This document shows positions 19,312 through 61,476 of a stretch of DNA of 64,000 bases, in pieces. Position 1 is the first letter of the stretch; each line of letters starts with the position of its first letter. Source of the DNA: Lucinisca nassula (lineage: Eukaryota; Mollusca; Bivalvia; Lucinida; Lucinidae). The stretch covers positions 40,377,124 through 40,441,123 of the forward strand of contig OY757016.1 in NCBI GenBank assembly GCA_963580285.1, given 5' to 3'. The translations under genes were made by a program, and so were the position numbers. Under the pieces are notes generated by a model. It was not told the origin of the DNA and made no database searches. It was given only the letters and a program-made list of their open reading frames with translations.

Positions 19312-19377
19312 ATGAATATCACAGAAATGAGAGTTTTATACCCCCTTTTAACAGTTTTATTCCTTGGAGTCGTGCAG
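19312..19377 (+). CDS. Exon 1: signal peptide
   Basis: ATG at 19312 opens 22 codons with a short polar start (MNITEMR), a hydrophobic core (VLYPLLTVLFLGVV) and a final Gln codon. A strong donor, CAG|GTGAGT, follows at 19378, phase 0. The next head-A exon also starts in phase 0, giving VVQ|VGYAKV, a plausible junction shortly before the mature domain. A second ATG at 19327 could also start the signal. The first is used here because the frame is open from it; nothing in the sequence decides between them. A long (AG)n tract lies about 120 bp downstream in the intron. The upstream 5' UTR and promoter are not recognisable. Because head-B exon 1 (40244) also starts in phase 0, this exon may serve both heads. 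Confidence 0.72.

Positions 19378-61476: not shown

Follow-up and report, generated by a model that had tools for sequence, protein, structure and literature searches.

A clam gene related to Notch ligands appears to encode two C2-DSL heads in series, arisen by duplication of a six-exon block

Delta and Jagged ligands carry one head. Here, we describe a gene in a 64,000-nucleotide stretch of the genome of the bivalve Lucinisca nassula (GenBank assembly GCA_963580285.1, contig OY757016.1, positions 40,377,124 to 40,441,123 of the forward strand; hereafter the window), which very probably encodes one single-pass membrane protein related to Notch ligands, with two heads in series that derive from duplication of a six-exon block. 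This clam protein has in common with Jagged/Serrate and Delta a signal peptide, a C2/MNNL domain followed by a DSL unit, many EGF repeats and one membrane span; it differs from them by carrying two serial heads in one chain, where DSL ligands have a single head per protein, and by additional modules that we name X. Bivalve-only genes with DSL domains or DSL tandem repeats, reported to lack EGF repeats (PMC8166818), share with the clam protein, as far as a comparison by description goes, the bivalve expansion of DSL and its tandem repetition, whereas the clam protein repeats a C2-DSL-X unit and has EGF repeats and a membrane span. The Delta-like receptor tyrosine kinase of Capsaspora likewise combines two DSL domains with EGF repeats in one ectodomain, but it is a kinase of a unicellular relative of animals, and the excerpt of the source at hand mentions no MNNL domain (PMC4810162). 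Mollusc Delta2, reported to have a Delta-like architecture from which the membrane span was lost (PMC8166818), is also a mollusc-specific offshoot of the Notch ligands, from which the clam protein differs by its two heads and its membrane span. Searches of an open-licence library of papers returned no account of a C2-DSL protein with two heads.

The window, whose positions are given throughout on the plus strand, contains two sets of six exons (block A, exons A1 to A6; block B, exons B1 to B4, X1 and X2). A preliminary description of the window had paired these twelve exons by order and by start phases (0,2,0,2,1,2), and the pairing holds without exception: order and start phases are identical in both sets, and all twelve exons have an AG acceptor and a GT donor. 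In block A, the C2/MNNL domain of the first head (head A) is encoded by A1 (25888..26057, first part, with a mean identity of 65.6% to five orthologues introduced below), A2 (31461..31575, middle) and A3 (32455..32612, end, with an Asp-Asp-Asp loop), its DSL unit with five cysteines by A4 (33815..33945), and the module between the heads, X_A, by A5 (35823..35967, first half) and A6 (38034..38192, second half and junction to head B). In block B, B1 (40244..40421), B2 (43170..43323) and B3 (46926..47080, with an Asp-Ser-Asp loop) correspondingly encode the first part, middle and end of the head B C2/MNNL domain, B4 (50972..51060) encodes a shortened DSL unit with four cysteines that is completed by the EGF exon, and X1 (57694..57826) and X2 (59366..59540) encode the two halves of the membrane-proximal module X_B.

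When single exons were compared by tblastn on the window, only the pairs A1/B1 (E 3e-8) and A4/B4 (E 1.6e-4 to 3e-4) were significant; A2/B2 reached E 0.11-0.20, and A3/B3, A5/X1 and A6/X2 gave no match at E<=1. Profiles of the whole heads and the whole X modules, built from the window and the five orthologues (six species), matched at E 2.5e-22 (head A against head B) and P 6.6e-8 (X_A against X_B), while the four cross-comparisons of head and X profiles stayed at E 0.34-0.92. Moreover, in 200 column shuffles the highest score was 24.5 against 140.5 for the head pair, and 19.7 against 49.2 for the X pair (0/200 as high in both cases). On the basis of these shuffles and cross-comparisons, a chance likeness of the blocks was rejected. 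The two profile matches bear out the tandem duplication of an MNNL-DSL-X block inside one gene that had been proposed in the preliminary description, and such an origin is supported by the sequences. The EGF, transmembrane and tail exons, which had been placed in the second block only, are each found once in the window (tblastn, E<=0.2), with no copy of the EGF exon in block A by tblastn of that exon on the window. In a tree of the 12 heads, the six A heads and the six B heads form separate groups with support of 100/100 each, suggesting that the duplication most likely predates the divergence of the six species.

The five orthologues come from homology searches. Among 225 candidates, a search with the head A region matched four proteins at E<=10 (E 1.6e-79 to 1.1e-65), those of Ruditapes, Mercenaria, Mactra and Dreissena, and the Mya orthologue was added by a profile search. 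This profile search, made at full length with 7990 scored candidates, returned six matches at E<=1e-5, five from the two-headed family and one EGF protein of Anneissia; it scored the candidates that share most words and is not readable as absence from oysters, mussels or scallops. An alignment search with the heads alone, covering proteins of about 290-920 amino acids that share short words, gave 0/6354 candidates at E<=10. All five orthologue species fall within Imparidentia. In public databases the proteins go under the names fibropellin-1-like, Notch, Notch 1-like or jagged-2-like, and their two heads appear to have been overlooked.

In the gene models, each orthologue is a single chain of 1257-1329 amino acids with both heads in series, in the order signal peptide, C2/MNNL-DSL-X, C2/MNNL-DSL, about 15 EGF repeats, X, membrane span and short tail. 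The window protein, read through the frame breaks considered below, is 42.5-47.0% identical to them. More specifically, when laid against the orthologues, exon A6 runs to 38192, where they fix its donor (GAG/GTATGT), and continues into B1, a feature that the preliminary description had missed. The joint between A6 and B1 is internal to the protein in 5/5 orthologues and aligns in all of them, reading GEH in four and EEH in Mya. The duplication and the phases are demonstrated in the Lucinisca window and the serial order in the gene models of five species.

Two other gene structures were weighed against this serial order. Since A6 as it stands in the window ends in a stop, the locus could be read as two tandem genes, an upstream one for a secreted signal-C2-DSL-X product of 302 amino acids that ends in A6, and a downstream one for a membrane protein encoded by block B. 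We regard this as highly improbable: the A6 stop lies in a shifted frame, the orthologues read through A6 into B1 as one protein, and a scan of 38160-40240 for an ATG, hydropathy and a donor match of 7 of 9 detected no exon that could give block B a signal peptide. Separate genes were rejected on the missing signal exon and the serial orthologues. The putative signal-peptide exon of the gene lies at 19312..19377 and has an ATG, a hydrophobic core and a donor (CAG/GTGAGT) in phase 0. At the thresholds used, 8000-25880 contains two signal-like sites that end in a donor of this phase, of which this is the better one; its identity to the orthologue signal peptides is only 14%.

The second structure is the one favored by the preliminary description, in which heads A and B would be alternatives spliced onto one EGF and transmembrane body. 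The phases permit it, and a chain of signal peptide, A1-A4, EGF, X, transmembrane and tail exons is open over 952 amino acids in the window. In addition, the Pfam DSL model (cut-off 24.2) reaches 23.3 bits when A4 of the window is spliced to the EGF exon, but at E up to 10 it does not match the window's head A continued into X_A. However, all five orthologue models (5/5) are serial, the joint between A6 and B1 is conserved as protein sequence, and A5 and A6 are still on average 33% and 45% identical to their orthologue counterparts, which would be needless for a stretch outside the protein. The fit of A4 to the EGF exon and of the signal peptide to B1 arises because the duplicated block starts and ends in phase 0; being a consequence of the duplication, this exchangeability is no evidence for alternative splicing. 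We therefore consider alternative heads unlikely, while a minor single-head isoform with A4 joined to the EGF exon, open over those 952 amino acids, may be produced.

With the serial arrangement as the preferred reading, the state of the Lucinisca copy has to be considered. The coding sequence in the window is interrupted by three single-base frame breaks, two of them in A6 and the third in B1, and the phase chain is broken only at the A6-B1 and B1-B2 joints. The copy might be a recent pseudogene, or might express a form from which both A6 and B1 are left out, with A5 joined to B2 in frame, either of which would be compatible with heads in series. Pointing this way, the two affected exons, 9% of the coding sequence, hold all three breaks (chance of such clustering, computed post hoc, 0.0007), and the window sequence sits on a long branch in the head tree. 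On the other hand, the remaining 14 exons all have open frames, among them the EGF exon with its 1743 bases, and clustered single-base assembly errors would give the same pattern. Moreover, A6 is 44.5% identical to the orthologues, against 47.3% between orthologue pairs (94% retained), and B1 52.1% against 56.3% (93% retained); relative to orthologue pairs, 11 of the remaining 14 exons are more diverged than either. This high relative identity suggests that decay, if any, is recent, or that the breaks are assembly errors. Taken together, a decayed or exon-skipping copy is plausible, and we lean against it.

The relationship of the heads to Notch ligands was examined at the level of profiles and predicted folds. 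A profile of head A matches the N-terminus of Jagged-1 over nearly its whole length (E 1.2e-5). The Pfam MNNL model (cut-off 22.5) reaches 24.9 bits in the head region of orthologue P0002, and falls below the cut-off for head A of P0002 alone (21.0) and for head A of the window (18.7). Structure prediction gave a C2 domain for each head of the Mercenaria orthologue, with Notch ligands as the best-ranking matches, at low model confidence. For head B in particular, the predicted local distance difference test (pLDDT) values are 25-61 and the lead of Notch ligands over ordinary C2 domains is small, and the models were relied on only jointly with the head A profile. As for the MNNL-DSL fold that the preliminary description had given head B, its C2 part is retained, with Notch-ligand C2 domains as top matches of this low-confidence model and ordinary C2 domains close behind, and its DSL part proves to be shortened. 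An N-terminal C2/MNNL domain, as in DSL ligands, is present.

The DSL units differ from those of Jagged/Serrate and Delta, which have six cysteines. DSL_A has five and is without the closing WxGxxC, and DSL_B has four and is without the middle loop, each in 6/6 sequences; a complete six-cysteine DSL unit was not found, and the Pfam DSL model stays below its cut-off in the window and orthologue sequences shown. When the head A profile is aligned with Jagged-1, a three-residue gap falls over FGH, the F of which we take to be F207. The equivalent of this residue is absent from both heads, through the gap in head A and the missing loop in head B, in contrast to Jagged/Serrate and Delta. In Jagged-1, F207A is reported to abolish binding to Notch-1 and to leave liposome binding (PMC3888931). 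An Asp-x-Asp motif at the calcium and lipid loop is kept in 12/12 heads (six A and six B), as the Asp pair is in Jagged, and in the Jagged-1 alignment Asp140 and Asp144 would lie within one or two residues of it. The same study reports that D140A/D144A in Jagged-1 lowers lipid binding and ablates activation, and that Dll-1 shows a calcium-dependent shift (PMC3888931), whereas C2 structures are described as binding calcium in Jagged and not in Delta-like1 and 4 (PMC5538765). Head A together with X_A contains 13 cysteines (window, Dreissena and Mya) or 14 (the other three), and head B 11 in 6/6 sequences; the odd counts suggest a disulphide between the blocks or a free cysteine.

Downstream of B4, the EGF exon (52209..53951, phase 1 at both ends) encodes about 15 EGF repeats, counted by pattern. 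Judged from the fold of the Mercenaria orthologue, X_B matches SEA-like domains of the membrane-proximal kind moderately well; the fold of SEA domains near the membrane is b-a-b-b-a-b. By eye, the G-S-hydrophobic site of SEA autoproteolysis is in neither the window nor four of the five orthologues; only X_B of Dreissena (P0004) has a GS pair at this point of the b2-b3 turn, the place of self-cleavage in SEA domains. Jagged carries a VWC domain before the membrane; its accession (PF00093) does not occur in the Pfam annotation precomputed for P0001-P0005, and the part after the EGF repeats gave no VWC match in the window and P0002, the two sequences scanned. The single transmembrane exon (60621..60715) has a hydrophobic stretch and a mean identity of 48.7% to the orthologues, and the exon 61404..61476 encodes a short cytoplasmic tail with NPIF and the stop. 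EGF repeats, one membrane span and an internal tail, as in DSL ligands, are thus all present. The tail motif is NPIF in the window, NPSY in 4/5 orthologues and QPIF in 1/5, and is a likely endocytosis signal. The PDZ-type ATEV end, found at the C-terminus of bilaterian Delta according to one survey (PMC5356439) and a further difference from Jagged/Serrate and Delta, is absent from the window and the five orthologues, whose tails end in NYS, DER, YDD, DLS, GLS and YDS. That survey calls a DSL protein DSL-like when it has additional domains (PMC5356439); under its definition, and with the DSL features that are lacking, the clam protein is DSL-like, neither Delta nor Jagged.

Several introns carry repeats. 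Between A1 and A2, 28346-31413 on the minus strand holds a broken element of the long interspersed nuclear element (LINE) type, two pieces of which weakly resemble reverse transcriptase (E 5.6e-4 and 1.5e-4, under the Pfam cut-off); other open pieces look endonuclease-like by eye, with no Pfam match at E<=0.01. Large minisatellite arrays (54748-57460, unit of about 85-93 bases) occupy much of the intron between the EGF exon and X1, and long AC repeats lie about 100 bases 5' of A4 (33345-33713, with a 97-base unit present 2.4 times at 100%).

As to its origin, a six-exon block (four head and two X exons) bounded by phase-0 introns would have been duplicated in frame. Block A runs through phases 0-2-0-2-1-2-0, its end phase being set by B1, and since it starts and ends in phase 0 it is duplicable in frame. 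The EGF exon, which stands at the joint of head and X in the second block only, may have been inserted in block B or lost from block A. The predicted product would start with the signal peptide, continue with head A, X_A and head B, carry an EGF stalk of about 15 repeats followed by the SEA-like X_B, and end in a membrane span and a short NPxY/F tail. Such a surface protein would present two calcium-dependent C2 heads, binding lipids or partners, on an EGF stalk. As both heads are without the DSL segment that makes the key contact between Jagged-1 and Notch, a role in adhesion, in membrane tethering or in cis modulation of Notch seems more probable than canonical Notch activation. A wider scenario is possible, though doubtful: in the lineage of this clam group, a Notch ligand would have become a protein with two heads that binds membranes or mediates adhesion in a calcium-dependent way and has given up the canonical DSL contact with Notch, its SEA-like module copied together with the head, and the choice of joining A4 to the EGF exon could still yield a single-headed form with a six-cysteine DSL unit, so that one gene would give two- and one-headed ligands.

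In conclusion, the intron phases (0-0 for the block and 1-1 for the EGF exon) are seen here as joints of domain rearrangement. Two divergent serial heads, each without a different part of the DSL unit and both with the calcium loop, would separate the lipid-binding from the Notch-binding role of the ligand N-terminus, and such a protein would give a direct test of a C2 domain acting alone.
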